Of a DNA stretch of 52,383 bases, positions 29,687 through 50,834 are shown in pieces. Source of the DNA: Syntrophobacterales bacterium. GTDB taxonomy: Bacteria; Desulfobacterota; Syntrophia; Syntrophales; UBA8958. The stretch lies in contig JAGPFL010000004.1 of the NCBI GenBank assembly GCA_018056545.1, positions 1 through 52,383 on the forward strand, given 5' to 3'. Numbering within the stretch: the stretch's first letter is position 1; every line of letters starts with the position of its first letter. The translations under genes were made by a program, and so were the position numbers. The notes under the pieces were generated by a model. It was given only the letters and a program-made list of their open reading frames with translations. It was not told the origin of the DNA and searched no databases.

Positions 29687-30139
29687 TTGACGGTTCTGTT
29701 CATCTGTACGGCCAATATCGTCAGAAGCTTTATGGCGGAAAGGATTCTCAAAGGGATGCTGAGCAGGGCGAAACGCCATGACGTCATCGTACAATCCGCA
29801 GGAATGGTCGACATGCATGGAGCCCCCGGTGACGCCACCGCGGCCGGTATCCTCAACGAACACGGCTTCGACGGGCATTTCCATGTATCAAGGCCATATG
29901 ATGAGCCTATGCTTTCCCAGGCGGACTGGATAGTGTTGATGGAAAACAGTCATAAGCAACGGCTTCTTGAATTGTACCCCCAATACGAAGAGAAGATGCG
30001 GCTCCTGAAAACATTTTCCCCGGAGTACGACGGCTTGAACGGGGACATCAGGGATCCCTATCGTCAATCCGCATATCATTACCGTCTTTGTTTTGCTGAA
30101 ATTTATACGTCTGTTTCCGGGATGATGAGATGTATTTAG
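29687..30139 (+). CDS. Low-molecular-weight protein-tyrosine-phosphatase family protein
   Basis: The 150-residue protein has the LMW-PTP P-loop form CTANIVRS (CX5R) and the late general-acid motif RDPY. In canonical enzymes the loop is usually C-x-G-N-x-C-R-S. Here Gly is Ala and the second Cys is Val, so activity needs testing. In capsule systems such phosphatases reset tyrosine autokinases, and one lies at 38563 in this window. The start is TTG at 29687 with AAGGGGG upstream. The 3' end overlaps the ATPase gene by 10 bases. Confidence 0.78.
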   Translation: MTVLFICTANIVRSFMAERILKGMLSRAKRHDVIVQSAGMVDMHGAPGDATAAGILNEHGFDGHFHVSRPYDEPMLSQADWIVLMENSHKQRLLELYPQYEEKMRLLKTFSPEYDGLNGDIRDPYRQSAYHYRLCFAEIYTSVSGMMRCI

Positions 30140-30924
30140 AATACTGGCAGTTACAGAACTTTCCCTTCGAGAATGTCCCCGATCCGGAGTTCATGTATTA
30201 TTCCCCGGAACACGAAGAGGCCCTGGTCCGTCTCCTCTATGCCGTAAAACGGATGAAAGGCGCCGCGTTGCTTACGGGAGAGATCGGCAGCGGGAAAACC
30301 ACCTTGAGCAGGGTATTCATCCAGCAGTTGCCGGAAACTGAATTCGACATCGGTCTCATCACCAACCCCTCCCTCAACGCCCTGGATTTCATCAAAGAGG
30401 TCCACTACCAGTTGGGTCTGGATTCCAACTCCAACTCCAAGGCCGAACTGTTGGTCATTCTCAACAACCGGCTGCTGGAAAACATGAGCAAGGGGAGAAG
30501 CACCCTGCTGATCATCGATGAAGCCCAACTCATCTTCGGGGAAACATTCGAAGAAATCAGGTTGCTCCTCAATTTTCAGATGAACGACCGCTTTCTGATG
30601 ACCTTCCTGCTCATCGGTCAGCCGGAATTGCGAGACATGATCCGTGACTACAAGCAACTTGACCAAAGAATCGCCATTAGATATCACCTGAATCCCCTTT
30701 CACAGGAAGAGACGGCAAAGTATATCCGTTTCCGCCTGGGCAAGGCCGGCGGTAATCGGGATTTGTTTACGGAAAAGGCCTATGAAGCCGTCTTTCTATA
30801 CTCCGGGGGGATCCCCCGAAAAATAAACAACGTCTGCGATTTGTCACTCCTCATCGGTTTCAGTCTGAAGGTAAAGGAAATTGACGAGAAGCTGGTTATG
30901 AAGGTAGTCAAGGATTCCCTATAA
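30130..30924 (+). CDS. ExeA-like AAA ATPase
   Basis: The 264-residue protein begins MYLEYWQLQNFPFENVPDP, the typical start of ExeA/GspA-like and exosortase-associated ATPases. It has Walker A GEIGSGKTT, Walker B LLIIDEAQL and the sensor region LLIGQPELRDMI. Relatives often sit in exopolysaccharide or type II secretion loci. No peptidoglycan-binding tail and no exosortase gene are present here. It is coupled to the phosphatase gene upstream. Confidence 0.87.
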   Translation: MYLEYWQLQNFPFENVPDPEFMYYSPEHEEALVRLLYAVKRMKGAALLTGEIGSGKTTLSRVFIQQLPETEFDIGLITNPSLNALDFIKEVHYQLGLDSNSNSKAELLVILNNRLLENMSKGRSTLLIIDEAQLIFGETFEEIRLLLNFQMNDRFLMTFLLIGQPELRDMIRDYKQLDQRIAIRYHLNPLSQEETAKYIRFRLGKAGGNRDLFTEKAYEAVFLYSGGIPRKINNVCDLSLLIGFSLKVKEIDEKLVMKVVKDSL

Positions 30925-31222: not shown

Positions 31223-31618
31223 ATGGTCATCGGCAGAAGAACCCTTTTCAAAATTGCAGCCGGGGCAACCCTGTCCGTTTCCGGGGTCTCTTTTTTAACG
31301 AGGGAGAAGGGCCTCCTGCCGTTTATCTGGCAGCAGCCGCTCCTCTATTTGACCATGAAGGAGGCGCCGGTCAGAAATCCGGATATTATGGTCAAAAACC
31401 ATGGCAGGGAGATGATTCTTCATTCCCGATCCCGGCAGGCAGACATCCTGAAGCTCAACGTTACCGCCGGTTATATATGGACACAATGCGACGGATCAAG
31501 GAAACTGGTAGATATCGTACGGGAGGTAAGCAGGAAATTCGATGTCACTTTCGCCCAATGCGGCCGGGACGTCCTCTTGACGATATGTAACATGCAGACC
31601 CGGGGCGTCTTGTTGTAA
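31223..31618 (+). CDS. PqqD-domain protein with Tat-like N-terminus
   Basis: Of the 131 residues, about 48-131 form a PqqD-like domain, the fold that acts as a RiPP recognition element. Recognisable blocks are VRNPDIMV, LKLNVTAGYIWTQCDG, DIVREVSRKFDV and a closing RGVLL. The N-terminus GRRTLFKIAAGATLSVSGVSF has twin arginines followed by a hydrophobic run, as in Tat signals. This is odd for a domain expected to bind a leader peptide in the cytoplasm. It may instead be a membrane anchor. The gene is followed after 42 bases by the Cys-repeat protein, its likely client. Confidence 0.75.
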   Translation: MVIGRRTLFKIAAGATLSVSGVSFLTREKGLLPFIWQQPLLYLTMKEAPVRNPDIMVKNHGREMILHSRSRQADILKLNVTAGYIWTQCDGSRKLVDIVREVSRKFDVTFAQCGRDVLLTICNMQTRGVLL

Positions 31619-31660
31619 TATCTATAAATCTGCAAGCCACCGACGGAAAGGAGCGCGGAT

Positions 31661-32056
31661 ATGGCCGAGGACAAGAAGAAAATCAAGCTTCCTTATGAAC
31701 CGCCGCAGATTCTCGACCTTTTCTCTTCTCCGGCCTACGCCCAAACAGTGGCTTGTGCACCTGGCAGCGGCGTAGCTTCCTTCTGTGCAACCGGCGGCAC
31801 CCCGGCACAGCAATGTACATCCGGCGGGGCGGCCACCGGCGGCAAATGCCAAAGCGGCAGCACCGCCTCACTGGAATGTATGCCCGGAAGTGCGCCTTCA
31901 GGGGGCAAATGTCAGTCGGGAAATGTGCCCATAGGGCAATGCCGGTCGGGAAGCGCCGCCGCGGGCGGGGAGTGCCGGGCGGGAAGCGCCGCCGGCGCCC
32001 GTTGCCGCAAGGGCGGTGCGCCGGCCATAGACTCCGCGGCCGATGGAGAATATTGA
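31661..32056 (+). CDS. Cys-periodic repeat protein, candidate RiPP precursor
   Basis: This 131-residue protein has two parts. Residues 1-31 are leader-like, basic then KLPYEPPQILDLFSSPAYAQ. Residues 32-115 hold nine cysteines at 32, 42, 52, 63, 73, 84, 94, 105 and 115, so intervals are only 10 or 11. Each Cys begins a unit of the form C-x-x-G-S/G-N rich in Gly, Ser and Ala (for example CQSGSTASLE, CRSGSAAAGGE). There is no hydrophobic core and no known enzyme motif. GGAAAGGAG precedes the ATG. With two PqqD proteins and a radical SAM/SPASM enzyme alongside, it looks like the peptide substrate. The modification type is inferred. Confidence 0.75.
   Translation: MAEDKKKIKLPYEPPQILDLFSSPAYAQTVACAPGSGVASFCATGGTPAQQCTSGGAATGGKCQSGSTASLECMPGSAPSGGKCQSGNVPIGQCRSGSAAAGGECRAGSAAGARCRKGGAPAIDSAADGEY
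31754..32005 (+). repeat. Degenerate tandem repeat coding for Cys-Gly units
   Basis: The coding DNA for residues 32-115 is a degenerate tandem array with units of 30-33 bases. Recurring codon strings encode GGxC-x-SGS. Unit length alternates mostly 30/33 bases, matching the 10/11-residue Cys spacing, so a 63-base (21-residue) higher-order period is visible in the middle. Confidence 0.65.
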
Positions 32057-32062
32057 GGCCGT

Positions 32063-32077
32063 AACGGGTAACCCGTT
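32063..32077. terminator. Short hairpin between convergent operons
   Basis: AACGGG (32063-32068) pairs with CCCGTT (32072-32077) around a three-base loop. It lies exactly between the stop of the Cys-repeat gene and the stop of the convergent kinase-like gene. No T tract is present on either strand, so it would be at most a weak bidirectional terminator. Confidence 0.35.
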
Positions 32078-33000
32078 CAGCCCGCCGTCACCAGCTCCCA
32101 AAATCCGCCCTCCTTTAGGAAATAAAGATCCACGGCGGGAACCAGGCCGCAGAGACGACGGCAAAAATCGAAGGCCCGCGTCCTCAACGCCGGCCCCAGC
32201 AGTCCATAGCATTGCACGTGATGAGTCAATAATTCCATGCAGGCGTAATGTCCTTCCCGGGGTTCCATACGTGTCTCCAAGGCCTGGTGGAGAAAAATGA
32301 TCCTGCGCAATCTTTCTTTTTGGAGGTGCCAACGCGGCGGTCGCGACCGATGCATATTGGTTTGCGTGAACGGGGTGGCATGGAGGATAAATCCGTCTTC
32401 CCCTGCCTCAACGAGCGTCGCATCGTCGGACAAAATCACATCGCCGACAGATAGCGCGGCAATCGTTGATTTCCCCGCCCCCGACTTGCCGACAAACAGG
32501 TATCCTTCCCTCCTGCGGCGTTTTTTGATGCCCGCCCCATGGATCAGGAACCGATTTTTAGCGGCCATTATCAGACAGACATAGATAAAAACGAGCTTCG
32601 CCAGCGTCGCCTGGGCATGGACGGCGGTGGGGGTGTAGAAGACATAAATCGCCCCCCGCCGGCTTCTACTGTCAAAGATCAGGCAGCCGTTCAAGAAACC
32701 GATCATTGCCGTGGCCTCCTCCAGGCGGCCGGGAAATATCCGTCCCATCCGCTCCGCAAGCTCGGCCTGCCAGGGGGCAGACATCCTTTCCAAAACGGTC
32801 GGTTCTGCACCGAAACGTTGGGGGTAGGTTTTTCTATGATCGAAAAAAACGAGGCATTCGGCATCGGCCCGCCTCTTCCCCGGAGCGACGAGAAATCCAT
32901 TCCAGAGCGCATCAACGTGAAAAAAAATGTTTTCCGCCGCCACCCCATGAGATACGAAATCGATGCGGTCTCCGGCAATCGCCGCGGTCGTTTTTCTCAT
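32077..33000 (-). CDS. HPr kinase-like P-loop protein
   Basis: In this 307-residue protein the C-terminal half carries FLIHGAGI, Walker A GKSGAGKST (171-179) and SDDATLV (191-197). This is the arrangement of HPr kinase/PEPCK-like small-molecule and peptide kinases. The N-terminal ~150 residues resemble the poorly characterised part of HprK-related proteins found in peptide-modification clusters. The HPr-recognition signature of true HprK is not evident. Its ATG overlaps the radical SAM stop by four bases (ATGA), so it belongs to the PqqD-radical SAM operon. It may phosphorylate the peptide or a cofactor. This is inference. Confidence 0.75.
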   Translation of the reverse strand: MRKTTAAIAGDRIDFVSHGVAAENIFFHVDALWNGFLVAPGKRRADAECLVFFDHRKTYPQRFGAEPTVLERMSAPWQAELAERMGRIFPGRLEEATAMIGFLNGCLIFDSRSRRGAIYVFYTPTAVHAQATLAKLVFIYVCLIMAAKNRFLIHGAGIKKRRRREGYLFVGKSGAGKSTIAALSVGDVILSDDATLVEAGEDGFILHATPFTQTNMHRSRPPRWHLQKERLRRIIFLHQALETRMEPREGHYACMELLTHHVQCYGLLGPALRTRAFDFCRRLCGLVPAVDLYFLKEGGFWELVTAG

Positions 33001-34094
33001 GTAAAAGGAAGCCCCTGAGAAGGATGATAGAGGCGGGAGGGGGGAAACAGGTTTTGACGATACGCCTCTTCACATATGAAAAACGAACTGCACAGGTCGC
33101 CCGTGACGGTATAGGCGCAGGCCCGACATGATCCGAGACAGCGAAACTTGAAGATGCAGAAACCACAGACACCTCCAAGACCGGAAGGCATATCTTCTCT
33201 CAATCGCTCCAGGAGGGGATGGTGGCGCCAGATCGTCCTTATATCATCCGTGGCGATGTTTCCCATATTGAGTTTCGTTTCCGTCTGCCCGATACCGCAG
33301 AGCGAAACCGTCCCGTCGGAGAGAATTCCCAGGATATTGAGAATATGACACTCATACAGGGAACCGCCGGTGATGGCCTTCAGAGATTTCAAGCCGATGG
33401 GAAGGCAAAAATTGATCTCCGTCTTGTACCTGCCGCTGAGCCGCGTCTCGATCCAGCGATCGATACGAAGCAGCTCCTCAATCGCCACGTTCTCCCGGCG
33501 CTGAAAAACCTTTTTTCCCCTTCCCGTGGGCATGATGGGATTGATTTTCAAAGACGGCACCTCGAGCTCGTCGCAGAGAGCCGCCAGAGGTTGGATTTCC
33601 CCAATGTTCTCTGCATACAGGCTCATGATGATCTGCCTGGTAATCCCCTGCTCTCCGAGATGTCGCAAGGCATTTACAGCCCGGGTATGACAACCGGCAA
33701 GGCCACGGAGACGTTCATGTAGCTCCGCCCGGGCGGCGTCCAGGCTGATCGATACCTGGCGAACCCCGCATTCCCTGAGAATCCGCGCCATATCTCCATC
33801 GATCATCGTGCCGTTGGATTCGATGTCGATCTCTAAACCTTCCCGACGCAAGAATCTCAACAACTCGTTGATGTCCCTTCGGATGAACGGCTCGCCGCCG
33901 GTCAGTTTGACCGAGCTTAGTCCCAATTCCTTCGCCCGGAGGACCGCCTTTGCCAGGACGTCGAAAGCCACCAGGTTCTCCGGTCCATCCTCCGGCGCGT
34001 TTGGTGAAACCCAGCAATGGCGGCAATGGAGATTACAGCGCTCGGAAAGATAGAGATAGAGGCTGCTCAGGGGGAACAACTTATCGGGATTCAT
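32997..34094 (-). CDS. Radical SAM/SPASM peptide-modifying enzyme
   Basis: In this 365-residue protein the radical SAM cluster motif is CNLHCRHC (C20, C24, C27). LTGGEPFIRRDI and SISLDAA follow as expected. The C-terminal SPASM region (about 255-345) has cysteines in YECHIL, VSLCGIG, CGFCIFKFRC, LGSCRAC and further Cys residues, enough for two auxiliary [4Fe-4S] clusters. It resembles PqqE and the SPASM enzymes of the SynChlorMet-type cassettes. These enzymes crosslink or epimerise ribosomal peptides. The gene overlaps the upstream PqqD-like gene by 14 bases and the kinase-like gene by four. Confidence 0.93.
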   Translation of the reverse strand: MNPDKLFPLSSLYLYLSERCNLHCRHCWVSPNAPEDGPENLVAFDVLAKAVLRAKELGLSSVKLTGGEPFIRRDINELLRFLRREGLEIDIESNGTMIDGDMARILRECGVRQVSISLDAARAELHERLRGLAGCHTRAVNALRHLGEQGITRQIIMSLYAENIGEIQPLAALCDELEVPSLKINPIMPTGRGKKVFQRRENVAIEELLRIDRWIETRLSGRYKTEINFCLPIGLKSLKAITGGSLYECHILNILGILSDGTVSLCGIGQTETKLNMGNIATDDIRTIWRHHPLLERLREDMPSGLGGVCGFCIFKFRCLGSCRACAYTVTGDLCSSFFICEEAYRQNLFPPSRLYHPSQGLPFT

Positions 34095-34413
34095 TATCTT
34101 TGCATAGCTGCAAAAATTGCATTTTTTTCAGTTCCTCTAAAAACGTCTTCGTATCGGCGGTTATCTTTTCCGGATCCGTATCGGGATAATCGGCCTTTAA
34201 TTTGTCCACAATATCGGCAAATGTTTTCTCCCCATCGCAGAATTCAAAGAGCCGGACGCCGGTTTCATTTATGTACTTCAGGTTGCCGGTTTGCGGGTCA
34301 AAGAGGAAGGCCCCCCTTTCCTCCTTACGGAAAACCATCTCTGGATTGGCTTTCAGAAAATCCAATTCCTTCTCGATCCTTCCTTCCCTGCCCATAACGG
34401 TTCTCTTTTCCAT
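34081..34413 (-). CDS. PqqD-family peptide chaperone
   Basis: In this 110-residue protein the block EERGAFLFDPQTGNLKYINETGVRLFEF, followed by ADIVDKLKADYPDTDPEKITADTKTFLEEL, is the PqqD/RRE fold (about residues 28-105). It resembles ScmD-like proteins of the SynChlorMet cassette. It overlaps the radical SAM gene by 14 bases, the usual arrangement for a PqqD that delivers the leader peptide to its radical SAM partner. The start is ATG 34413, or ATG 34395, which has a better purine-rich stretch upstream. Confidence 0.85.
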   Translation of the reverse strand: MEKRTVMGREGRIEKELDFLKANPEMVFRKEERGAFLFDPQTGNLKYINETGVRLFEFCDGEKTFADIVDKLKADYPDTDPEKITADTKTFLEELKKMQFLQLCKDNESR

Positions 34414-34605
34414 ATCTTTTTTAGACCTGCCCCATCCCTACCCCGCTCTTTTGAAGAGGAAAACGTAGCGTCCCATCATGGCAGGTGCAACAATCTCTTT
34501 CTGTCAACCTGATTATTGCCTACCTTCCTTGTCATTTGTTAGTCAAGATTAATTTGCTTTTTCCCGCCCTCCTGTTAACATGAGGCTCACGTAAGGAGGA
34601 ATCCG

Positions 34606-35823
34606 ATGAGGCAGGAAATAAGTGATACAATGAAAAAAAACGTGGAGCGGGTTCTCTTTTCCCTAATGAATCAAGATCCGGCACCGGAGCTGCCGGAAAT
34701 TCCCGTCGTTCAGGAATTTGTCTCCTACCTGGATGAAAACGGCGTCACCGGGGTATTTTTCCATGTCCTCAAGAAAGCCGGTTGCCAAGACCTTTTACCC
34801 GCGGAGGTTTACGACGACCTTCTGCAACGCTTTCACCTGCAGGTCGCAAGAAATTTGGCCTGTGCCGCCTCGGCCAGGAAAGTATTCCACCTTCTTTACA
34901 GTCACGACATCCCCTTTATAGTCTTGAAGGGGCTTGCCCTGGCGGAGAATATTTATCCTCATTTCGCCATGCGCACGACCTCTGATCTCGACATTCTCAT
35001 CCACAGTGAAGATCTGCCTCGGGTCGATCGGATCCTCGCCCGGGACGGCTATCTTGCTAAAGACAGCACCGTTCCCCAGGCGTTACGCAACCCTCCCGGT
35101 TATCTGGCCAGCCTCGAATATCATAAATCAAATATTGCCTTCTCATATCTTCATCTCCACTGGCATCTCATCAATACCTCCACCCCCGCCGTTGGCTTCA
35201 CAGAAAAAATCGATATGGAAAGGATATGGGAACTATCACGTATGGGGAGCGTGGCAGAGATGGAAGTACGACTCCTCTGTCCGGAGCATCTGGTTATCTA
35301 TTTATGCGAGCATGGATTGCGGGTCGGTCATTCTTTTGATCGCTTGAACCTGATCTGCGATCTCTTCTATGCCGTCAAGAGCCTTGAGGACCGACTCGAC
35401 TGGGATTTAACTGCCCGGGAGGCAAAAAAAATGGGCCTGCAGAATTTTGTCTTTCTCGGCTTGAAGATCCTGCAAACATATGGGGGTAGAAAAATACTGC
35501 CTGACGCCATATTGGAAAAATTCGATCCCCAGGCTCTATCCTTCGGGGAGCGTCTTTTTCTACGCCTGCAGCAGCATGGTTTCCGGTTACGGGGAAGCAG
35601 TTATCTTGTTTATCTGGCCGCCAACAGGGGATTCTTCAATAAAGGACATCTGATTTTTCGGACCCTCTTCCCTCCCCGACTTATCCTGGCCCAGCGGGTC
35701 AGACAGGAATCGGGCTTAAATAGCCCATCTTTGTATTTTAGTAGGATAGCAGAAATTTCCGCCTTCATTCTGAAGCTGATCAGACTGCTGGCACATTATC
35801 CGGGGAGTGCCTTTATGCGCTGA
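34606..35823 (+). CDS. Nucleotidyltransferase-family protein (NTP_transf_5-like)
   Basis: The 405-residue protein has the nucleotidyltransferase core FIVLKGLALAE, then RTTSDLDILIH with the metal-binding D-x-D at 127-129. This form is frequent in peptide-modification clusters and in polysaccharide loci. The later histidine-rich HLHWHLINT segment is also typical. The reaction and substrate are unknown. A perfect AAGGAGG precedes ATG 34606. The gene is divergent from the PqqD-radical SAM operon and its end overlaps the convergent HD-GYP gene by 11 bases. Confidence 0.8.
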   Translation: MRQEISDTMKKNVERVLFSLMNQDPAPELPEIPVVQEFVSYLDENGVTGVFFHVLKKAGCQDLLPAEVYDDLLQRFHLQVARNLACAASARKVFHLLYSHDIPFIVLKGLALAENIYPHFAMRTTSDLDILIHSEDLPRVDRILARDGYLAKDSTVPQALRNPPGYLASLEYHKSNIAFSYLHLHWHLINTSTPAVGFTEKIDMERIWELSRMGSVAEMEVRLLCPEHLVIYLCEHGLRVGHSFDRLNLICDLFYAVKSLEDRLDWDLTAREAKKMGLQNFVFLGLKILQTYGGRKILPDAILEKFDPQALSFGERLFLRLQQHGFRLRGSSYLVYLAANRGFFNKGHLIFRTLFPPRLILAQRVRQESGLNSPSLYFSRIAEISAFILKLIRLLAHYPGSAFMR

Positions 35824-37051
35824 TTTCCTCCGGAGACACTCCCCGTTCGATGTTGAGAATGGGATAATTTCGCAAATCGATGATCCGGGGAGGTTCTATA
35901 GGCTTACCCTTTTCGTCGCTGATCAGCTTGAGTACCGGTTTCATCGGATAGCCCTTGTTTGTAGCCACCACCCGGCCAAGGTTGCGATTGTTCAAACGAA
36001 CATAACAGCCCACGGGATAAATGGAAATCTCCTCCAAAAAGGCCTTGATTATCCGCAAATCGAAGAGATTGCTCCGTGATCCGATCAACTCTTTGATGGA
36101 TTCCGTTTGCAGGAGGGGCTTTTTATGAGGGCGGTGGTGCGTCATGGCCTCATAAGAGTCACAGATGCCGATAATCTGAGCGAAATCGCATATCTCATCC
36201 CCCTTGAGACCCTGAGGATAACCCTGACCGTTCACCCTTTCCTGATGTTCGTAAATTGCCCGGATCATCTTCGGGTAGGCATCCCGGTATGCCATCAGGA
36301 TTTCCACCGCTTTTTCCGGATGCTTCCGGATCATTTCCATTTCCTCTTCGGTAAGTTTTCCCTCCTTGTTGAGGATTTTTTCGGGAATGGTGAACATTCC
36401 CACATCGTGGAGCAGAGCTGCCAAGCCGATTTCTATAAGTTCTTTTTTATCGTAACCCAAGCCCTGGGCCACTTTCAATCCATAAACCATGACATTTACC
36501 GGAGAAGAGATGTAGTATTCGTCTTCCTGTTCATAATCTACGGTCAACTGATAGATCTGGGAAACGACGTCCTCCGAGCTGTTTATTATGTTGTTGACAT
36601 AAATAAGGGCCTGTTCCAGGTTAAAGCGCTTTCCCTCCTGAACGCTCTGGCGCACCATTACCATATATTCTTTTGCCGCCAGATATATCCTTTTCAGAGT
36701 CGCTCCTTGCGGTGAAGGGCACGCTGCATCTTGATCTTTATCCTCAAAACGGTCGGATCCGGGTGGCGGTAAGATGTTTACCGAAGAAATCTTTTCTTGC
36801 CCCTCTGGAACGCTTTTGTCCTTGACATTCCCCTGAGTAAAGGCATCAGCGTCGTGTCGCTTTGTAGCTGCCGTCAACGATCTTCCTGCAGTACCCTTCA
36901 TGCTCAGAATGTCGATGTCGCTCAAGCGTAAGGACTCTTCGGATCCACTTGTCGTTTTCTCTTCCTGAAGTACCGGCCTATTGTTGTCGCCGACGCCGTT
37001 GAGATCATAAATCGATTTCGTTTTACCCTTAACGATATCGGAGGCACGCAT
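35813..37051 (-). CDS. HD-GYP domain c-di-GMP phosphodiesterase-like protein
   Basis: This 412-residue soluble protein has a low-complexity polar N-terminus (1-~115), a central HD-GYP domain (about 180-345) and a C-terminal ~65-residue tail. The HD motif is LLHDVGMFTIPEKIL. The GYP segment is HQERVNGQGYPQGL, with NGQ where DGS is most common. No receiver or sensor domain is visible. AAGGA precedes the ATG, and a TATAAT hexamer (minus strand, 37076-37071) lies 20 bases upstream. Placed directly against the polysaccharide operon, it may link c-di-GMP to export. Confidence 0.88.
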   Translation of the reverse strand: MRASDIVKGKTKSIYDLNGVGDNNRPVLQEEKTTSGSEESLRLSDIDILSMKGTAGRSLTAATKRHDADAFTQGNVKDKSVPEGQEKISSVNILPPPGSDRFEDKDQDAACPSPQGATLKRIYLAAKEYMVMVRQSVQEGKRFNLEQALIYVNNIINSSEDVVSQIYQLTVDYEQEDEYYISSPVNVMVYGLKVAQGLGYDKKELIEIGLAALLHDVGMFTIPEKILNKEGKLTEEEMEMIRKHPEKAVEILMAYRDAYPKMIRAIYEHQERVNGQGYPQGLKGDEICDFAQIIGICDSYEAMTHHRPHKKPLLQTESIKELIGSRSNLFDLRIIKAFLEEISIYPVGCYVRLNNRNLGRVVATNKGYPMKPVLKLISDEKGKPIEPPRIIDLRNYPILNIERGVSPEEISA

Positions 37052-37322: not shown

Positions 37323-38543
37323 ATGACGGGTAAAATCGGGCGGATATCGGCGGCGGTCTTTATCGCCCTGTGTGTATGTACCCTAACCGCATGCTTTCCT
37401 TTTCTGGAAGACACCGGTATCCCCATCAAAGAATACGAGGCCAAGAGAATCACCCCCCAGGACGAGGCACGCCTCCAGAAGGAACAAGAGGAACGATTAG
37501 CGGAACTGGCCAAGCTCTCCAGTGTAAAAAGCAACAGCGTCTTCACGGAAAAGCGAGGCGTGGCGGATTACATCGTCGGTCCCGGCGACGTCCTAACCGT
37601 GAATTTCTGGACGATTGCCGTCGCCGGCGCCCAGACCTTCGAAGGATTCAAGCAAATCACCTACAACGTGGAGGTCCGTCCGGACGGCAAGATCTCCTAC
37701 ATGTACGGCGACGATATCCCGGTGTCCGGCAAGACGGTTTACGAGATACAGGAACTCCTCCGTGCCGACCTTAAGAAATATTTCCGCAACCCACGCCTCG
37801 AGGTACTCGTCAAGGAGTACAAGAGCAAGACCGCCACCCTCTTCGGCCAGATTAATGTTTTACCCACGGGCACATCCGGCCCTGGACGCTATCCCCTGAC
37901 CGGCAAGACGACAATGATCGACCTGATCTCCAAGGCCGGCGGGGCCATTACGGGACGTAGCGATTACTCGGCCCTGCCGGGGGTGGCCGCGGCCGGGCAG
38001 CAAAACGTCGCCAATGCGGACCTGAAAAACGTGGAACTGGTCCGCAATGGCAAGAAGTACACCGTCAACCTCTATAGTGCCATGTTCTATGGGGATACAA
38101 GACAGAACCCGATTCTCGAAGACGGCGACATCATCACCGTCCCGGCCCTGCCTTACTTCGCCGACCGGATCTATGTGATGGGTCAGGTTGCCAATGTGGG
38201 CATCTACCGGCTCCAGGACGCCCCGGATCTTCTTGCCGCCTTGGCCCAGGCCGGCAGCATCACCGCCACGGCCGTCAAATCGGACATCAAGGTCATCAGG
38301 GAATTCCGGGAGCGGGGTGGCAAACCCATCATCCTTTCCGCCAACTACAACGATATCCTCAAACGGGGTGACCTTTCCCAGAACATAAAACTCCAGAGCG
38401 GGGATGTGGTTTATGTTCCTCGGATGTTTATTGGGGATATCAACGAATTCATCGCCAATACCACGCCGTTGCTCAATTATCTTCTGATTCCAGCATCGTA
38501 TCGCGACAAATATGCAAAAGATCAGAATTTCATGAAATGGTAA
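37323..38543 (+). CDS. Polysaccharide export outer-membrane lipoprotein (Wza-like)
   Basis: The 406-residue protein has a signal peptide ending in the lipobox LTAC (Cys about 22). The polysaccharide export domain begins DYIVGPGDVLTVNFW, and SLBB-type repeats follow (IYVMGQVANVGIYRL). It should form or seed the outer-membrane channel for a surface polysaccharide. GGAG sits upstream of ATG 37323. It opens the operon with the tyrosine autokinase 19 bases downstream. Confidence 0.92.
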   Translation: MTGKIGRISAAVFIALCVCTLTACFPFLEDTGIPIKEYEAKRITPQDEARLQKEQEERLAELAKLSSVKSNSVFTEKRGVADYIVGPGDVLTVNFWTIAVAGAQTFEGFKQITYNVEVRPDGKISYMYGDDIPVSGKTVYEIQELLRADLKKYFRNPRLEVLVKEYKSKTATLFGQINVLPTGTSGPGRYPLTGKTTMIDLISKAGGAITGRSDYSALPGVAAAGQQNVANADLKNVELVRNGKKYTVNLYSAMFYGDTRQNPILEDGDIITVPALPYFADRIYVMGQVANVGIYRLQDAPDLLAALAQAGSITATAVKSDIKVIREFRERGGKPIILSANYNDILKRGDLSQNIKLQSGDVVYVPRMFIGDINEFIANTTPLLNYLLIPASYRDKYAKDQNFMKW

Positions 38544-38562
38544 TTCCCGGAGCCGACGGCAA

Positions 38563-41280
38563 ATGTTGAAATACGACCTCAACCTCCGTGAATACTGGCG
38601 GATCATCAAACGCCGGAAATTCATCATCATATTCACATGTGTGATCATGGGGATCTTCAGTCTGGTCTCCGCCATCCTCAACAAACCCGTACCCGTATAT
38701 AGAACCTCCACCGCCGTCAAGGTTGAAAAGACACAATCCATGCTGGGCTTCTCCACCCCGAGTTCCGGAGGCGCCAATCTGGAAACACAAACCATCATGA
38801 TCAGAAGCTATTATATTTTGGAGCTCACGGCCAAAAAGATGGGGATGATTCCGGAAACCCTTCCTTCTGAAGACGTCCGGAACAATCCGAAATACATCGG
38901 CATCATTCTCGAGCTAAAAGACAAGGTAAAGGCGGAACAGGAAGGCGGGAGCGACCTTATCAATATCGAGATCACCGCCAACGATCCTAAATTTGCCGTC
39001 AACTTCGCCAATACCCTGGCGGAGGTATATCAAAAGCAGCATACCCTGGAACTGAACCGGCGCACTATCGAGGGCAAGAAATTCGTCGAAAGTCAGTTCG
39101 CCGCCGCCAAAGAAAAGATGACCAAATCGGAGGAAGCGATCAAAAAATTCCGGGAGGAAAACAAATGGACCTCCGTGGAAGCCGAATCCACCTATACCCT
39201 AAACGAGGTGAAACGTCTCAAGTCTCAGTACAACCAGGAACAGATCGTCCTGCAGAAACTCCTGATCGCCGAGCGGGCGCTGAACAATGCGGAGGCTCAA
39301 CCCCTCACCTCCAAGAACAGTTTCTATTTCGAGGAGGCCTCCCCTCCCTACAAGGCCCTCAACGATAAACTCGTGGGTTATATGGTGGATCGCGACACGC
39401 TGTTGCTCACCTACACGGATAATTTTCCTCAGATCCAGGCCATCCGCAGCCAGGTTAGAGACACCCTCGCCGGGATGCGCAATCAGTTGCGCCTCCAGAA
39501 AAACAACCTGCTTGAGAACCAGCGAATCCTAAAGCGCCAGATCGCCGATTTGGAGGAACAATTCAAACAATTACCGGAAAAGGGATTGGAATTGGCTAAA
39601 CTGGAGCGGGAAATGACCATCAACCGCGAAGTCTACACCCTCCTGGAGAAGAAATATCAGGAAATACTCATTGCCGAAGCGGAAAAAATCGAGGAAGTCA
39701 AGATCGTCAAGCCGGCCCTGGAACCGGGCGGCCCGATCAATCCGCCGAAAATCGGCAACAACGCCGCCATTGGAACCCTCATGGGATTGATTCTCGGGGT
39801 GGTGTTCGCCTTTCTCATCGAAACCTTCGACACCTCTATCGGCGCCATCGAAGAGGTGGAAGATTTCCTCGGCGTCCATGTCCTGGGGGTCATTCCCTTT
39901 GTCAGTCCGGAAGAAATACGCCTGCTTTTGAGCGACGATCAAGGCAAGTTGACGGTAGAAGAAACGAAGCTGCCCCGCTACCTGCGCATGGTTTCGCATT
40001 TTGTCCCCTCCTCCACGCTGGCGGAAAGCTATAAGTCTTTCCGCACGAGCATCAACTTCGTTTGTATGGAAAAAAACATTAAAAACATCGTCCTCACCAG
40101 TTCCTCCCCCGGCGAGGGCAAGACCTCGACGATCGTGAATCTGGCCCTGACCATGGCTCAGACCGGCCACAAGGTACTGCTCATCGACGGAGACCTGCGG
40201 CGTCCGGTGATCGCCGGTTTGTTCGGCATCGAGCACACCCCGGGACTCACTGATGTGATCATGGGCAATTATGAATGGCGAAACGTGGTCAAGAACATCT
40301 CCGATTTTATGATGGGACAGATGACCGTCGAAGAGATAATGGCTACCCCCGGCATGGATAACCTCAACATCATCACCAGCGGCACCCATGCGCCCAATCC
40401 GGCGGAGATCATCGGCTCCAAGAGCATCACCGAGTTCATGCGCCAAGTGCGGGCGGAGTACGACATGGTTCTGGTGGACGCCCCACCCGTGTTGGCCGCT
40501 ACGGATGCGGCCCTGTGGAGTTCTCAGGTCGATGCCACCGTCCTGGTATATCAGGTGGGCAAGGTTGCTCGGGGGGCGTTGAAGAGGGCTAAGATGCAGT
40601 TGGATGCCATCAAGACCAACATCATCGGGGTGGTCCTGAACGGAATCCGTGCCGAGATCAGCACCGACTTCACATATCATGACTATTACTATTACCACTA
40701 CCGCTATGGCGATGTTAAAAAGGGAAAACAGCCCTGGTACCAGACGTTCCTGAAAAATTTTACTCTCAACCGCATAATGAACTACGGACTGTTTTATAAA
40801 AAACGCTATCGTCATCGCAAGAAGACGGAAGCCAGGGGGAACAATGATACCGACCCCACAAGCCAATCGAAAGCCGCCGGAGGGGCGGCTGCCAAGGCGC
40901 TACCCCGGTCTTCTGTCCCGGTACCTCAAGAAGCTGAAAATGGAAAAACCACTACGGCAGGGAAGCTGAAGGTTACTCTCGACAAATACATGCCGATTAT
41001 AAAGATTATTGTCGTGGTGCTGGCAATCTGCTTTCTGATCCTGGGCATCCTTTATCAAGGAGGCTTTCTGAAAGCATTTTTCCCTGGTGTGAAGGGCCAC
41101 TCAAGCCTGAAATCCATCCTTCAGCTTCAAAGGGATGCTATCGACGTTGCCGCAGCATCCGCCGCCAACGAGTCATCAGCATGTCAACTGCGAACCTCCT
41201 TGCCGTTCAGTTTCAACGAGCTAAAGATATTCAAACATTTATCTGCGCTTTCTGACAATGGCAACCTCATCTTTCTTTGA
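38563..41280 (+). CDS. Wzz/Wzc-type polysaccharide copolymerase and tyrosine autokinase
   Basis: The protein has 905 residues. An N-terminal Wzz domain starts after LREYWRIIKRRKFIIIFTCVI. A periplasmic coiled coil (about 150-370) and a second transmembrane segment near 405-425 follow. The BY-kinase domain has Walker A SSPGEGKTS, Walker A' LLIDGDLRRP and Walker B MVLVDAPP. A Tyr cluster (YHDYYYYHYRYG, about 704-715) is the autophosphorylation tail. Unusually, another ~190 residues follow, with a basic linker and a third transmembrane stretch (about 807-828). It controls chain length and export through cyclic phosphorylation. The phosphatase at 29687 may oppose it. Confidence 0.93.
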   Translation: MLKYDLNLREYWRIIKRRKFIIIFTCVIMGIFSLVSAILNKPVPVYRTSTAVKVEKTQSMLGFSTPSSGGANLETQTIMIRSYYILELTAKKMGMIPETLPSEDVRNNPKYIGIILELKDKVKAEQEGGSDLINIEITANDPKFAVNFANTLAEVYQKQHTLELNRRTIEGKKFVESQFAAAKEKMTKSEEAIKKFREENKWTSVEAESTYTLNEVKRLKSQYNQEQIVLQKLLIAERALNNAEAQPLTSKNSFYFEEASPPYKALNDKLVGYMVDRDTLLLTYTDNFPQIQAIRSQVRDTLAGMRNQLRLQKNNLLENQRILKRQIADLEEQFKQLPEKGLELAKLEREMTINREVYTLLEKKYQEILIAEAEKIEEVKIVKPALEPGGPINPPKIGNNAAIGTLMGLILGVVFAFLIETFDTSIGAIEEVEDFLGVHVLGVIPFVSPEEIRLLLSDDQGKLTVEETKLPRYLRMVSHFVPSSTLAESYKSFRTSINFVCMEKNIKNIVLTSSSPGEGKTSTIVNLALTMAQTGHKVLLIDGDLRRPVIAGLFGIEHTPGLTDVIMGNYEWRNVVKNISDFMMGQMTVEEIMATPGMDNLNIITSGTHAPNPAEIIGSKSITEFMRQVRAEYDMVLVDAPPVLAATDAALWSSQVDATVLVYQVGKVARGALKRAKMQLDAIKTNIIGVVLNGIRAEISTDFTYHDYYYYHYRYGDVKKGKQPWYQTFLKNFTLNRIMNYGLFYKKRYRHRKKTEARGNNDTDPTSQSKAAGGAAAKALPRSSVPVPQEAENGKTTTAGKLKVTLDKYMPIIKIIVVVLAICFLILGILYQGGFLKAFFPGVKGHSSLKSILQLQRDAIDVAAASAANESSACQLRTSLPFSFNELKIFKHLSALSDNGNLIFL

Positions 41281-41354: not shown

Positions 41355-41636
41355 ATGGAAGGCGACACCCGAGATAAAAGCAGGGAGAAGGAACATAAAC
41401 GCCGGGTTGCTCAACGCCGCGCCCGGAGGCGCCGGACGCTTATCTGGATGATCGTGATTACCGTCTTTGCCGCCCTCATCATCGGTTTGGCCCATTTCGC
41501 CCCCGACATCATCCAAAAGTTCACCATCGTCGATGAGTACCTCCCCCGAGATATCGAACGCCAGTATTGGGAGCTTCAGGATACGCGCACAAAACAGCCC
41601 GTAAAGCCGGATTTCGCCACCCCCAAAGCAAAATGA
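41355..41636 (+). CDS. Small single-span membrane protein in polysaccharide locus
   Basis: The 93-residue protein has a very basic N-terminus (KHKRR/RRARRRR region), one transmembrane helix (about 33-55, LIWMIVITVFAALIIGLAHF) and a C-terminal tail. Its stop overlaps the start of the O-antigen ligase-like gene as ATGA, so the two are coupled. I do not recognise a family. The topology suggests an inner-membrane accessory of polymerisation. ATG 41355 is chosen over an upstream start that would overlap the autokinase gene. Confidence 0.6.
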   Translation: MEGDTRDKSREKEHKRRVAQRRARRRRTLIWMIVITVFAALIIGLAHFAPDIIQKFTIVDEYLPRDIERQYWELQDTRTKQPVKPDFATPKAK

Positions 41637-43030
41637 TCGCTTCCGGAAACAAAAACGTGCTGCTGATGCTCTGGATTGGCGGACTGACTCTGGCCGCCGC
41701 CCTGATCATGGCCAACGCCCCGACTTTTCTGGCCGTAACGATCATCATTTCCCTGATCATCGGTGCCCTCACCTTCATCAACACAGAATTCGCCTTGTAC
41801 ATCCTCATCGCCGCCATGCTCTTGGGTCCTCAGTTCGGGATAGAAGGGGCGGCCGGAGAAGGCGTCCGTGGTCGGGGGGTGACGCTACGTGTTGATGATT
41901 TTCTCCTGGTGATCATCGGTTTGAGCTGGTTTCTCAAGACTGCCGTCCAGAAGGAACTCGGCCTGTTTCTCCGGACCCCTCTAAACAAGCCCATCGCCTA
42001 CTATTTCCTGGCCTGCGTAGTCGCCACTTTGATCGGTTACATGATGGGTCGAGTCAAGGGAACCGCCGGGGTTTTTTTTGTAGTCAAATATTTCGAGTAT
42101 TACGTCATCTATTTCATGGCGGTAAATTATTTGAAGGAAGAAGCGCAGATCCGCAGATTCACCTATTTCATGCTCATCGTGTGTTTCCTGGTCTGTCTTT
42201 TCGCCTTCAGCCAGATCCCCAGCGGCAGAAGGGTCTCGGCACCCTTTGAAGGTCGGGAAGGAGAACCCAACACCCTGGGTGGCTACCTGGTCCTCATGCT
42301 CTCCATCATTTTTGGCCTACTCTTGACGATAAAAGAGAGGAAAACCAAGATCTATCTTTCCATATTGGTCCTTTTCATTACCATATCGTTAGCCGCCACC
42401 CTTTCTCGCAGTTCCTGGTTGTCACTGGTACCGATGGCTCTGGCCCTCCTCTATTTCAGCGAAAAAAAGAAGACCATCCTAACGGTCCTGCTCCTTATAA
42501 TCTTTGTAGGACCCATGATCATGCCGTCTGCCGTCCGGGAAAGGGCTTTATACACCTTTATGCAGGGCAAAGAACAAGGACAGATCCAGGTGGGCAACAC
42601 CCGGATCGACACCTCCACCTCCGCCCGTCTCTTGTCATGGAAGGTCATCCTGACCAGAGATTTCTTCAAACAACCTCTTTTGGGCTATGGGGTAACGGGA
42701 TATCCATTTGTAGACGCCCAATATCCCCGAGTACTGGCAGAAACGGGACTGATCGGTTTTGTTTTCTTCCTAATGCTCCTCTACACCATTTATCGGAATG
42801 CCATCTTGACCTTCCGCCAGACCAAGAAAGACTTTTTCCGGGGATTGTCTCTGGGTTACCTGGCCGGTTTCTTCGCCATGTTGGCCCATGGCATCGGTGC
42901 CAACACCTTCATCATTGTTCGGATCATGGAACCCTTCTGGTTTCTCACCGCCATGATCATTATGATCCCCACAATCGAAAAGCAGTCCCAAGTCACTTCC
43001 ACGGCAAGACCTCTTGTTGATCACGGATAA
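41633..43030 (+). CDS. O-antigen ligase/polymerase-like membrane protein
   Basis: This 465-residue polytopic protein has about 11-12 membrane segments. The long extracytoplasmic loop contains the Wzy_C/O-antigen ligase pattern SARLLSWKVILTRDFFKQP, LGYGVTGYP and a glutamate in VLAETGLIGFVFF. Family members join or polymerise glycan units on the periplasmic face. It ends the first half of the locus. The ABC exporter operon begins 215 bases on. Confidence 0.87.
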   Translation: MIASGNKNVLLMLWIGGLTLAAALIMANAPTFLAVTIIISLIIGALTFINTEFALYILIAAMLLGPQFGIEGAAGEGVRGRGVTLRVDDFLLVIIGLSWFLKTAVQKELGLFLRTPLNKPIAYYFLACVVATLIGYMMGRVKGTAGVFFVVKYFEYYVIYFMAVNYLKEEAQIRRFTYFMLIVCFLVCLFAFSQIPSGRRVSAPFEGREGEPNTLGGYLVLMLSIIFGLLLTIKERKTKIYLSILVLFITISLAATLSRSSWLSLVPMALALLYFSEKKKTILTVLLLIIFVGPMIMPSAVRERALYTFMQGKEQGQIQVGNTRIDTSTSARLLSWKVILTRDFFKQPLLGYGVTGYPFVDAQYPRVLAETGLIGFVFFLMLLYTIYRNAILTFRQTKKDFFRGLSLGYLAGFFAMLAHGIGANTFIIVRIMEPFWFLTAMIIMIPTIEKQSQVTSTARPLVDHG

Positions 43031-43055
43031 TCTTATTGCAACCATCGGCCATATG

Positions 43056-43086
43056 TGGCATTAATATTGCGTTTTTTGTATATAAT
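43056..43086 (+). promoter_or_regulatory. Candidate sigma-54 promoter with overlapping TATAAT
   Basis: TGGCAT (43056-43061), five bases, then TTGC (43067-43070) matches the -24/-12 sigma-54 consensus in both invariant dinucleotides (GG at 43057-43058, GC at 43069-43070) and in spacing. A perfect TATAAT follows at 43081-43086 with no good -35. Both precede the Wzm/Wzt operon. No obvious enhancer-binding site was identified in the 215-base gap. Confidence 0.5.
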
Positions 43087-43245
43087 GTTACATCTTGTTT
43101 TGTAGGTACCTCCAATGCCGGGAAGATTTTTGGAACCGAAAGAGCGGAGCATTATCTGAATGGATAAGAACCGCAGAAATAATTCTTTTTCCTTCTGAGG
43201 ATTGCCGATGACACCGCCTTATGAAAAAGGCCGGCTGTACCAATC

Positions 43246-44094
43246 ATGATCATGAGCGCCCACCCCCTCCAAGAGCATATCCTGGTTATCGAACCCGGGA
43301 GAACTAAGAAGAACTACTGGACCGATCTGTGGCGCTACCGGGAGCTCTTCACCGTACTGGCCTGGCGGGACCTGGCGGTGCGGTATAAACAAACCGTTAT
43401 CGGTGTCCTCTGGGCGGTGTTGCGCCCCTTTCTGACCATGGTGGTCTTCACCGTCGTTTTCGGACGTATCGCCAAACTCCCGAGCGACGGCGCCGCCCCC
43501 TACGCCCTCTTGGTCTTCGCCGCCATGCTCCCCTGGTCCCTCATCGCCAACAGCCTGTCCGAGGCGGCCAACAGCGTCATCGCCAACGCCCAGCTCATCG
43601 GCAAGATCTACTTTCCCCGTCTCATCATCCCCGCCGCCGCCATGGTGACGGCCCTGGTGGATTTTTTCATCAGTTTCGCCCTCCTTTTGCTCATGATGAT
43701 CTATTACCAATTTTGGCCGGGCTGGCAGGTCCTGCTGTTACCCTTTTTCGTCCTCATGGCCCTCTTGGCCAGTTTCGGCCCCGGCCTCTGGATCACGGCC
43801 CTGAATGTGAAATATCGGGACTTCCGTTATGTGATCCCCTTTATCATCCAATTGGGGCTCTATGTTTCCCCCGTGGGCTTCAGCAGTGCCGTCATCCCCG
43901 AAAAATGGAGACTGTTGTACAGTCTCAACCCCATGGTGGGGGTCATCGACGGCTTCCGCTGGTGTCTCCTGGGGGGGAACAGCCCCCTCTACCTGCCGGG
44001 GTTTGTCCTGAGCCTGTTGATCATCCTCTTCTTTATGTGGTTAGGCCTCAGGACCTTCCGCAAAACGGAGCAGACCTTCGCCGACTTGATCTGA
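43246..44094 (+). CDS. wzm: ABC-2 type polysaccharide export permease (Wzm-like)
   Basis: The 282-residue membrane protein starts its core with YWRDLWRYRELFTVLAWRDLAVRYKQT-like sequence (TagG/Wzm signature, residues about 25-50). LGVLWAVLRP-type and six membrane segments follow, then YVSPVGFSS and LNPMVGVIDGFRW. It forms the inner-membrane channel of an ABC exporter for lipid-linked polysaccharide. The Wzt gene follows after six bases. The start is ATG 43246 or ATG 43252. Confidence 0.93.
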   Translation: MIMSAHPLQEHILVIEPGRTKKNYWTDLWRYRELFTVLAWRDLAVRYKQTVIGVLWAVLRPFLTMVVFTVVFGRIAKLPSDGAAPYALLVFAAMLPWSLIANSLSEAANSVIANAQLIGKIYFPRLIIPAAAMVTALVDFFISFALLLLMMIYYQFWPGWQVLLLPFFVLMALLASFGPGLWITALNVKYRDFRYVIPFIIQLGLYVSPVGFSSAVIPEKWRLLYSLNPMVGVIDGFRWCLLGGNSPLYLPGFVLSLLIILFFMWLGLRTFRKTEQTFADLI

Positions 44095-44100
44095 CAAACC

Positions 44101-45348
44101 ATGTCCGATATCGTCATCATTGCCGAGGGCCTCGGAAAGCGCTACACTATTGGTCACCAGACGACCAAAGGGGGCCTCACCTTTCGGGAGGCTATGATCC
44201 GCAGCGCCCGGGAGTTGGGAAAGAAGACCCTGGACCTGCTCCGGGGCCGGCCCCTGATCGCCGGGGACACGCGGGAGGAGATCTGGGCCCTCCGGGACAT
44301 CCACTTCGAGATAAAGAGGGGCGAGGCCGTGGGCATTATCGGTCGCAACGGGGCGGGGAAGAGCACCCTGCTGAAGATCCTGAGCCGCATTACGGAGCCC
44401 ACAGAAGGCCGGGTTACGATCAAAGGCCGGGTGGCCAGCCTCCTCGAAGTGGGCACGGGTTTTCACTCGGAGCTCACCGGGCGGGAAAACATCTTCCTCA
44501 ACGGCACGATCCTGGGGATGAACCGGGCGGAAATCAAGAAGAAATTCGACGAGATCGTGGCCTTCGCCGAGGTGGAGAAGTACCTCGACACCCCCGTCAA
44601 GCGTTACTCCAGCGGCATGTACGTCCGCCTGGCCTTCGCCGTGGCGGCCCACCTGGACCCGGATATCCTCTTGGTGGATGAGGTTCTGGCCGTTGGTGAC
44701 GCCCATTTCTACAACAAATGCACCAACAAGATGAGCGAGAGCATCAGAGGGGGAACGACCATCTTTCTCGTCTCTCACAATATGTGGCTCATCCAGACGA
44801 TCTGTGATCGTGCTATGTTCCTCGACCAGGGCCGGATGATCAAGATGGGTGATCCTTTCAACACGGTGCAGGAGTATCTAAACGCCCAGTCGCTTACCGC
44901 GGAGGAAAAGGGGGACGAAGAAGGTTACAAACCGGTGACGATAGGCTATGCCGAAGCGAGGGACATCAACGGCAATCCTTTGAAGGCAACCACCCCCGAC
45001 GGGACGGTGGTCGTATTCGCCACCTATCGGAGCAAAAAAGGAGGGTTTCGAGGATATTTCTTCCTGCGGGTGACAACCCCCGACGGTTATCCCCTCTATA
45101 CGGTCTACAGCGATCTCCAAGAGCTACCGGAAGGACCGGGCATTGTGGAGGCGGTAATCGAATCCTTTGCCCTCTTGGCGGGTGAATATCGCCTTTGGAT
45201 CGGCGTGTGCGGAATGAAAAAAGAAGAGGAGCGTATATCTGAGAAACAACTCAAGTTGGAGGTCGGATCCTCCCCTTCCTTTTCCGATCCCCGTTACGGG
45301 GTCTATTTCAACAAGGTCCTCTGGAAAAAGACGACCCCCATACCGTAA
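44101..45348 (+). CDS. wzt: ABC exporter ATP-binding protein with Wzt-type C-terminal domain
   Basis: In this 415-residue protein the ATPase part (1-~260) has Walker A GRNGAGKST, signature YSSGMYVRLAF and Walker B ILLVDEVLAVGD. The remaining ~150 residues form a beta-rich Wzt_C-like domain, which in O-antigen exporters binds the modified chain end and sets substrate specificity. It works with the Wzm-like permease upstream. The presence of an ABC exporter beside a ligase/polymerase-like protein leaves open which assembly route is used. Confidence 0.93.
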   Translation: MSDIVIIAEGLGKRYTIGHQTTKGGLTFREAMIRSARELGKKTLDLLRGRPLIAGDTREEIWALRDIHFEIKRGEAVGIIGRNGAGKSTLLKILSRITEPTEGRVTIKGRVASLLEVGTGFHSELTGRENIFLNGTILGMNRAEIKKKFDEIVAFAEVEKYLDTPVKRYSSGMYVRLAFAVAAHLDPDILLVDEVLAVGDAHFYNKCTNKMSESIRGGTTIFLVSHNMWLIQTICDRAMFLDQGRMIKMGDPFNTVQEYLNAQSLTAEEKGDEEGYKPVTIGYAEARDINGNPLKATTPDGTVVVFATYRSKKGGFRGYFFLRVTTPDGYPLYTVYSDLQELPEGPGIVEAVIESFALLAGEYRLWIGVCGMKKEEERISEKQLKLEVGSSPSFSDPRYGVYFNKVLWKKTTPIP

Positions 45349-45405
45349 AAATCTTCAAAGTCCCTGTATCGGATCCCGCGAATTAATCATAAACTCGACA
45401 GACAA

Positions 45406-46638
45406 TTGAAAATACTTTTCGTCACACCCGAATACCCATACCTGGAACCGAGCGGCGGTATCGCCAGTTACGTCCAGGATATCGCCGCCGTCATGGCAGA
45501 TCAGGGTCATGACGTCAAGGTCCTCTGCAGCACGGAGCTGCCGGGGGAATTTCCGACGGTCCATGTCGTTCAGGAAGAGCAGACGGAGATCCATTTCATC
45601 TCGAAAAGAAAAGCCCGCTGGCTTGCCCGACTGACAAGGGCACCTTTCCTTAAAAACCTCTTGAGGACCATCCTCCCCGATCCCGGCCCCCTTATCGCCC
45701 CCCTCGCCGTCTTCCTCCATTGGCTCGCTCTGAAAAAACAATGGTTACCCGACATCATCGAGGGCTTCGACTGGCAGGCGACGGGTCTTTTTATCGCCCT
45801 CTGTAAGGGGGATATCCCTTTCGTGTTCCGCGGCGGCGGCCACGGTAAAGCCGTCCTCACCCGGAACAACATTTCCTGGACACCCTATCTGGAGTCTCAG
45901 CATCGCCTGGAGCGCTGGTACGCCAAACATTCCTCATTACTTGTTCCCTGTTCGGCGCTGCTCGGACAAGATGAAATGAAGGATTTTCAAATCCCGCAAG
46001 AAAAAATCGTCCCCGTCCCCAACTGTGTCTCCCCTTTAGCCTTGAGCCAGAGCACGGCGCAACATCAGGATAGGGGAGAAAAGTTAAAGGCGGTTTTTGT
46101 GGGGCGATTGGAATTCCGTAAAGGCATCGACCTGTTCATAAAGGCCGCCCAAAACCTCTTTCCCTGCTACCCCGGTGTGGAATACCACTGCATAGGCAGG
46201 GTGGACATCGGTCCTTCATCCTTGTTGGAAAAGACGATCCACGCTGATCTCTTCAAAAAAAACATCCACATAACGGGACCGCTCCCCCGCCAGAAGGTTT
46301 ATGAATACCTCTCATATTGTGATTTCGCCGTCTTTCCTTCCCGCTATGAACCCTTCGGCACTGTGGCCATCGAGGCCATGGCCCTTGGGTTACCCGTCAT
46401 CGTCAGTGATGCCGGCGGCTGGCGGGAAGCGGTCGAGGATGGGGTGTCGGGCTTCATCTGCAAGGCCGACGACGAAAAAAACCTGCGCGAGAAAATGGAG
46501 TTGATGATCAAGATGACCCCAGGCCAACGAAATGTCATGGGGGAGAGGGGAAGGAAGATTGTCGAACAAAACTATACATCTAATGCCATAAGCAACCGGA
46601 TGATCGAAATATACCATGGTCTTTTAAGGCAGGAATAA
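45406..46638 (+). CDS. Glycosyltransferase family 4
   Basis: The 410-residue GT-B protein begins KILFVTPEYPYLEPSGGIASYVQ. The C-terminal half has VGRLEFRKGIDLFIKA and the EX7E motif region FPSRYEPFGTVAIEAMALGLPVI. It is a retaining cytoplasmic glycosyltransferase acting on nucleotide sugars. The start is a TTG at 45406 with no strong Shine-Dalgarno. The glycosyltransferase genes are packed with gaps under 20 bases. Confidence 0.9.
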   Translation: MKILFVTPEYPYLEPSGGIASYVQDIAAVMADQGHDVKVLCSTELPGEFPTVHVVQEEQTEIHFISKRKARWLARLTRAPFLKNLLRTILPDPGPLIAPLAVFLHWLALKKQWLPDIIEGFDWQATGLFIALCKGDIPFVFRGGGHGKAVLTRNNISWTPYLESQHRLERWYAKHSSLLVPCSALLGQDEMKDFQIPQEKIVPVPNCVSPLALSQSTAQHQDRGEKLKAVFVGRLEFRKGIDLFIKAAQNLFPCYPGVEYHCIGRVDIGPSSLLEKTIHADLFKKNIHITGPLPRQKVYEYLSYCDFAVFPSRYEPFGTVAIEAMALGLPVIVSDAGGWREAVEDGVSGFICKADDEKNLREKMELMIKMTPGQRNVMGERGRKIVEQNYTSNAISNRMIEIYHGLLRQE

Positions 46639-46645
46639 ACCGAAC

Positions 46646-47647: not shown

Positions 47648-47657
47648 AAAATGAGTG

Positions 47658-48854: not shown

Positions 48855-48900
48855 CGATCATGATTATTACCTGCTTAGATGTCCGTTTGTCCGGAATTGA

Positions 48901-49635: not shown

Positions 49636-49638
49636 CGC

Positions 49639-50754: not shown

Positions 50755-50834
50755 AGATAAGAGTTGTTGCTCGATAAGCTTCTGAGCAATGACAATATTT
50801 GGTCCATGAATACACAACTACCCCGTCAATAGCA

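Follow-up and report, generated by a model that had tools for sequence, protein, structure and literature searches.

In this study, we analysed a 52,383-nucleotide stretch of Syntrophobacterales DNA (hereafter the window) and identified, at positions 31223-35823, a cassette of six ORFs that very probably constitutes a RiPP system acting on a Cys-repeat precursor. Our analysis connects SynChlorMet (Scm), a predicted and uncharacterised family, with a clear precursor class in many phyla, and brings out its parallel with the newly characterised LPPs (linear polyphosphorylated peptides). The novelty looks to lie in a variant, in which a Tat-type PqqD protein and an AxA leader stand in place of a peptidase and an exporter, rather than in the whole system. 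This variant may represent a new way of exporting and processing ribosomal peptides, and it is open to test.

Organization of the cassette and its precursor

The ORF check recovered all six genes named in a preliminary description of this DNA, and Pfam matches agreed with the families assigned there. The convergent layout had been described correctly as well: PqqD-1 and the precursor lie on the plus strand, while PqqD-2, the radical SAM enzyme and the kinase-like protein form an operon on the minus strand. Upstream, an ATPase of the XrtA/PEP-CTERM-associated type (30130..30924, plus; TIGR03015 246.7 bits, cut-off 324.5; supported by synteny) is the conserved neighbour and belongs to the exopolysaccharide (EPS) locus. 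Downstream are an HD-domain protein (35813..37051, minus; PF13487 1.2e-31), whose gene is often part of the minus-strand operon in relatives, and the conserved pair of a polysaccharide export protein and a Wzc-like chain-length/tyrosine kinase (37323..41280, plus). The cassettes of relatives take the same position, with an LMW-phosphatase/XrtA-type ATPase pair on one side and EPS export/Wzc genes on the other. The place of the cassette inside an exopolysaccharide locus is conserved, and this constant neighbourhood makes a cell-surface or biofilm role directly testable. The preliminary description had not mentioned this placement, the Tat-like N-terminus of PqqD-1 or the missing second radical SAM enzyme. 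According to the ORF list only, positions 41567-51848 of the window are a long polysaccharide locus with a membrane polymerase/ligase-like protein, several glycosyltransferases and an ABC-type polysaccharide exporter pair.

The precursor (31661..32056, plus) is an ScmA-like protein of 131 aa. Its leader, residues 1-27, ends YEPPQILDLFSSPAYA and is followed by Q and then by a core of nine CxxG repeats. The nine regularly spaced cysteines noted earlier were borne out: they occupy positions 32, 42, 52, 63, 73, 84, 94, 105 and 115, each within a CxxG, at spacings of 10, 10, 11, 10, 11, 10, 11 and 10 residues, and none of 100,000 composition-keeping shuffles reached this regularity or the CxxG count. 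A tandem-repeat search at the DNA level returned a 14-base, two-copy array only, and the protein repeat therefore does not stem from recent duplication of DNA. Two leader elements were recognised. YEPP (residues 12-15; 31694..31705, plus) is a YxxP motif and the expected RRE-binding site, a function that such motifs are known to have in the leaders of lasso peptides and LPPs (PMC13381572). AYA|Q (residues 25-28; 31733..31744, plus) is a predicted signal-peptidase-type cleavage site, with a distance of 15 from Tyr to position -1.

The same features recur in ScmF-associated precursors, in which Tyr and Pro of YxxP are kept in 83 of 88 leaders. Repeat units are CxxGxxA-like at a spacing of 10-11 residues; among 87 precursors with 532 units, this spacing occurred in 349 of 463 intervals and Ala stood at +6 in 253, neither property having been a selection criterion. 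No feature of these 87 otherwise variable cores is better conserved than Cys and CxxG.

The radical SAM/SPASM enzyme (32997..34094, minus; Pfam Radical_SAM 2.8e-25, SPASM 1.5e-6) is a divergent ScmF, which it matches over the full length of TIGR04251. Its best solved relatives by profile include the sactipeptide enzyme SkfB (7.1e-27, the best), PqqE and SuiB, whose chemistries differ from one another. The HprK/PEPCK-fold, ScmC-like kinase (32077..33000, minus) has a weak sequence match (ScmC 2.5e-5), but its fold (model pLDDT 91) and catalytic residues identify it clearly: His154, Lys177, Asp192 and Asp193 are invariant in the alignment, and this His-Lys-Asp-Asp set is required in lasso kinases (PMC9266682). 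PqqD-2 (34081..34413, minus; Pfam PqqD PF05402 2.8e-14) is a stand-alone, ScmD-like RRE. The NTP_transf_5 nucleotidyltransferase-family protein (34606..35823, plus; PF14907 7.5e-46) is of the PsmN/LppN kind, and its gene occurs in 41 of 58 precursor-bearing loci; PsmN has been linked to hexose addition onto phosphorylated Ser (PMC9266682). A solved-structure search with this protein and PqqD-2 gave nothing useful. In three other loci (L045, L083 and L086), NTP_transf_5 ORFs of 515-559 aa also match a signal-peptidase profile and appear to be NTP-transferase/peptidase fusions.

Related loci and known systems

At a threshold of 1e-30, 52 of 197 related genomes contained a homologue of the radical SAM enzyme, a count that includes more distant radical SAM enzymes. 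Homologues also occurred in 80 kept loci of a wider genome collection; the loci range over Desulfobacterota, Omnitrophota, Chloroflexota, Verrucomicrobiota and methanogens. With a Cys-chain scan, a protein combining a YxxP leader with CxxG repeats was detected in 69 of 111 dereplicated ScmF loci, and in 58 of the 89 loci of at least 9 kb. Roughly one in three of the longer loci yielded no precursor in the strict scan, some of these lying at a contig end; a looser look added several more precursors. The preliminary description had named a consistent lack of Cys-periodic proteins in homologous loci as evidence against its reading. This pattern was not observed, and the recurrence supports its view of a SynChlorMet-related, RiPP-like cassette with a Cys-repeat substrate. 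One locus (L047:1-6781) holds about seven Cys-repeat precursors beside a single ScmE/ScmF pair. Methanogens carry Scm cassettes as well (L089, L095, L104 and L137), and in three of them the leader closes with GYG or GHG ahead of the first Cys.

The SynChlorMet models of NCBIfam (TIGR04248-TIGR04252) were run on the window, as had been proposed earlier. The expected likeness was found: the radical SAM enzyme, PqqD-2 and the kinase matched ScmF (by far, the next model scoring 159.8 bits), ScmD and ScmC best, and the precursor weakly matched ScmA. Membership was not, as all four scores lie under the cut-offs (ScmF 327.3 against 400 bits, ScmC 23.8 against 125, ScmD 38.6 against 100, ScmA 17.5 against 35), and the window thus holds a divergent SynChlorMet relative rather than a member by those models. 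In addition, its radical SAM enzyme falls in one tree with ScmF, and Cys-repeat precursors stand beside ScmF elsewhere as in the window. The earlier statement that the SynChlorMet precursor is unidentified was mistaken, since NCBIfam includes TIGR04252, 'SCM_precur_ScmA'. The claim of a new system was likewise overstated, given these models and the parallel of the machinery with LPPs. Our literature search found no paper on SynChlorMet or ScmE/ScmF, and none on a system with PqqD and twin-arginine signals or PqqD and HprK/exosortase.

Typical Scm loci pass the cut-offs (ScmF 598, ScmE 603, ScmC 197 and ScmD 121 bits) and encode both an ABC exporter and a TIGR02228 signal peptidase, the latter in some loci as a fusion with ScmC. 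The window's cassette has neither the signal peptidase nor the MsbA-like exporter of such loci but a Tat-type PqqD and an AxA leader instead, and it lacks ScmE. L049, for example, passes the cut-offs and encodes a glycosyltransferase besides an MsbA-like ABC protein and a signal peptidase of the archaeal type; L048 has a methyltransferase. Archaeal-type signal peptidase and ScmC kinase share one ORF in L064:5421-7106, L065, L115, L118, L131, L142 and L070; such fusion suggests that the leader peptidase and the kinase act on one substrate. An ORF of ~580-640 aa where complete recurs between ScmE and ScmF (L048, L049, L051, L056 and L059). The L049 copy resembles the LA_3751/LA_3752 glycosyltransferase family (80.5 bits, cut-off 200), which suggests that the products of such loci may be glycosylated.

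LPPs were described from Bacillota in 2026; their RRE presents a YxxP leader to the signal-peptidase-like LppS, and leader cleavage has been shown (PMC13381572). Typical Scm loci have the gene set of LPP clusters (PMC13381572), to which they add two radical SAM enzymes. The window shares with LPPs the YxxP leader, the discrete RRE, the HprK-like kinase with its catalytic residues, the NTP-transferase and the place in a polysaccharide locus. The cleavage register is shared as well, with Tyr at -16 when the LPP distance is counted from the published consensus YxxPxVLxHQxIxFET with cleavage after Thr (PMC13381572). Unlike LPPs, the window has a radical SAM enzyme (the word 'radical' is absent from PMC13381572) and a Cys-repeat core, and lacks an LppS-like peptidase and the MsbA-like LppD. 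The phosphorylated lasso peptides paeninodin and pseudomycoidin likewise resemble it in their PqqD-like B1, HprK-like kinase with His-Lys-Asp-Asp and nucleotidyltransferase (PMC9266682), but the window has a Cys-repeat core and a radical SAM enzyme. A lasso peptide identity was set aside, as neither a macrolactam synthetase (C) nor a B2 peptidase is among the cassette ORFs. A radical SAM/SPASM enzyme with SkfB as its best solved relative and a Cys-rich precursor recall sactipeptides and ranthipeptides; the window differs in adding stand-alone RREs, a kinase and an NTP-transferase, and the thioether is only putative here.

Tat-type PqqD proteins and AxA leaders

PqqD-1 (31223..31618, plus; Pfam PqqD PF05402 3.5e-11) places an RRE domain (~residues 46-131) behind a twin-arginine-like N-terminal signal or anchor (GRRTLFKIAAGATLSVSG), assigned to Tat by motif and hydrophobicity. 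The domain was modelled mostly at pLDDT ~90, and its best PDB matches were to the lasso RRE TbiB1 with its leader (E 9.4e-5). In seven orthologues, R5 and R6 are among 11 invariant columns, and an [RK]R motif with a hydrophobic stretch is present in all loci of the window's class, L053 and L058 having KR in place of RR. The genome of the window encodes TatC and one bacterial signal peptidase I.

Among the 58 precursor-bearing loci, the Tat-type PqqD coincides with an AxA leader. The first count gave 17 of 17 against 1 of 41, and the sole exception, L043, also encodes a Tat-PqqD within a longer ORF, giving 18 of 18 against 0 of 40 (Fisher 2e-15, with loci treated as independent). The Tat group has A[YHF]A at a distance of 15 from leader Tyr to Ala(-1), but 14 in two, and other Scm leaders tend toward an AxG or GxG ending near this place. 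On the ScmF tree the Tat state required two changes with contig-edge loci masked; the kinase tree needed two at most, and a single supported set there unites 14 Tat rows, that of the window among them. The association is old and has been retained, yet has not arisen often, with one or two evolutionary origins. Loci of the L053 type have a kinase closer to that of the window than to ScmC but a typical ScmF, so an exchange of the radical SAM pair probably took place in which the kinase, the precursor and the Tat-PqqD were kept as a set.

The absence of a dedicated peptidase and exporter, as first described, was correct for the cassette: a search of the 82% complete assembly found no archaeal-type signal peptidase, and the window's locus encodes no MsbA-like exporter. 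The same was true of the Tat group, with a signal peptidase in 1 of 17 loci against 31 of 41 others and an MsbA-like exporter in 1 of 17 against 30 of 41; the single locus with both, L045, has a second, typical cassette. ScmE, the second radical SAM enzyme, is absent from the locus and has no match over the cut-off in this 82% complete genome, and tblastn between the XrtA-type ATPase and PqqD-1 found no remnant. Of 43 loci with good flanks, 41 contain it, as do three genus mates (G001, G002 and G006) and, at 558 bits, the close relative L037. Either one radical SAM enzyme suffices in the window, or the cassette is losing function.

Proposed route and alternative explanations

We consider it somewhat probable that, in outline, a SynChlorMet-kind RiPP cassette is combined here with Tat export and processing by signal peptidase I. 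PqqD-2 would hold the precursor by its leader, as the YxxP motif and the RRE fold suggest, and present it to ScmF, which would modify the CxxG repeats, thioether bonds from Cys being the likeliest chemistry. The HprK-like kinase would phosphorylate the peptide on Ser/Thr, and, by analogy with PsmN, the NTP_transf_5 protein may decorate the phosphate. PqqD-1 would then bind the same leader, carry the finished peptide over the membrane by Tat and place AYA|Q where an ordinary signal peptidase I can cut, a route that would take the place of the MsbA-like exporter and the archaeal-type signal peptidase found in other Scm loci. Our confidence in this Tat and signal-peptidase part falls a little short of even. 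Its fuller form is proposed tentatively: the RRE would itself be the Tat passenger on which the modified peptide piggybacks, and the leader would have evolved a housekeeping signal-peptidase site at constant spacing from the RRE-binding motif, so that the cassette could do without an exporter or leader peptidase of its own. Against the proposal stands the lack of a hydrophobic core in the leader, which would make it an atypical substrate for signal peptidase I; the small number of independent origins of the Tat/AxA link weighs against it as well.

The same cassette and substrate could operate with PqqD-1 held at the membrane by its N-terminus only; export would then fall to the EPS machinery or an unlinked exporter, and the AxA would serve another protease. 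PqqD-1-type signals have no obvious AxA site of their own, which makes an anchor plausible, and polysaccharide export genes adjoin the cassette; but conservation of [RK]R-x-[FL] even in orthologues only 17% identical and the strict AxA link fit translocation better, and we consider the anchor unlikely, though worth serious attention. A comparable, rather low probability applies to a radical SAM enzyme that makes no thioether and instead epimerises or carbon-crosslinks the core, the cysteines binding metal or forming disulfides. Enzymes of the radical SAM/SPASM kind do catalyse several reactions, as the differing chemistries of the solved relatives illustrate, yet Cys and CxxG are what the 87 cores conserve most and SkfB is the best match.

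Two further explanations question the substrate or the product. The Cys-repeat protein could be an unmodified structural or surface protein, as its Gly-, Ala-, Ser- and Cys-rich repeats and its polysaccharide locus would allow, with the enzymes acting on another target. Against this, YxxP is kept in nearly all leaders beside RRE proteins in many phyla, and RREs of lasso peptides and LPPs bind leaders of this type; this explanation is very improbable. Decay of the cassette to a remnant, with ScmE and a further PqqD protein lost and the full product not made, would account for the missing ScmE that nearly all well-covered loci retain, an absence that counts against our proposal. We regard decay as improbable, since the remaining ORFs are intact, the catalytic residues are kept and the Cys register is perfect.
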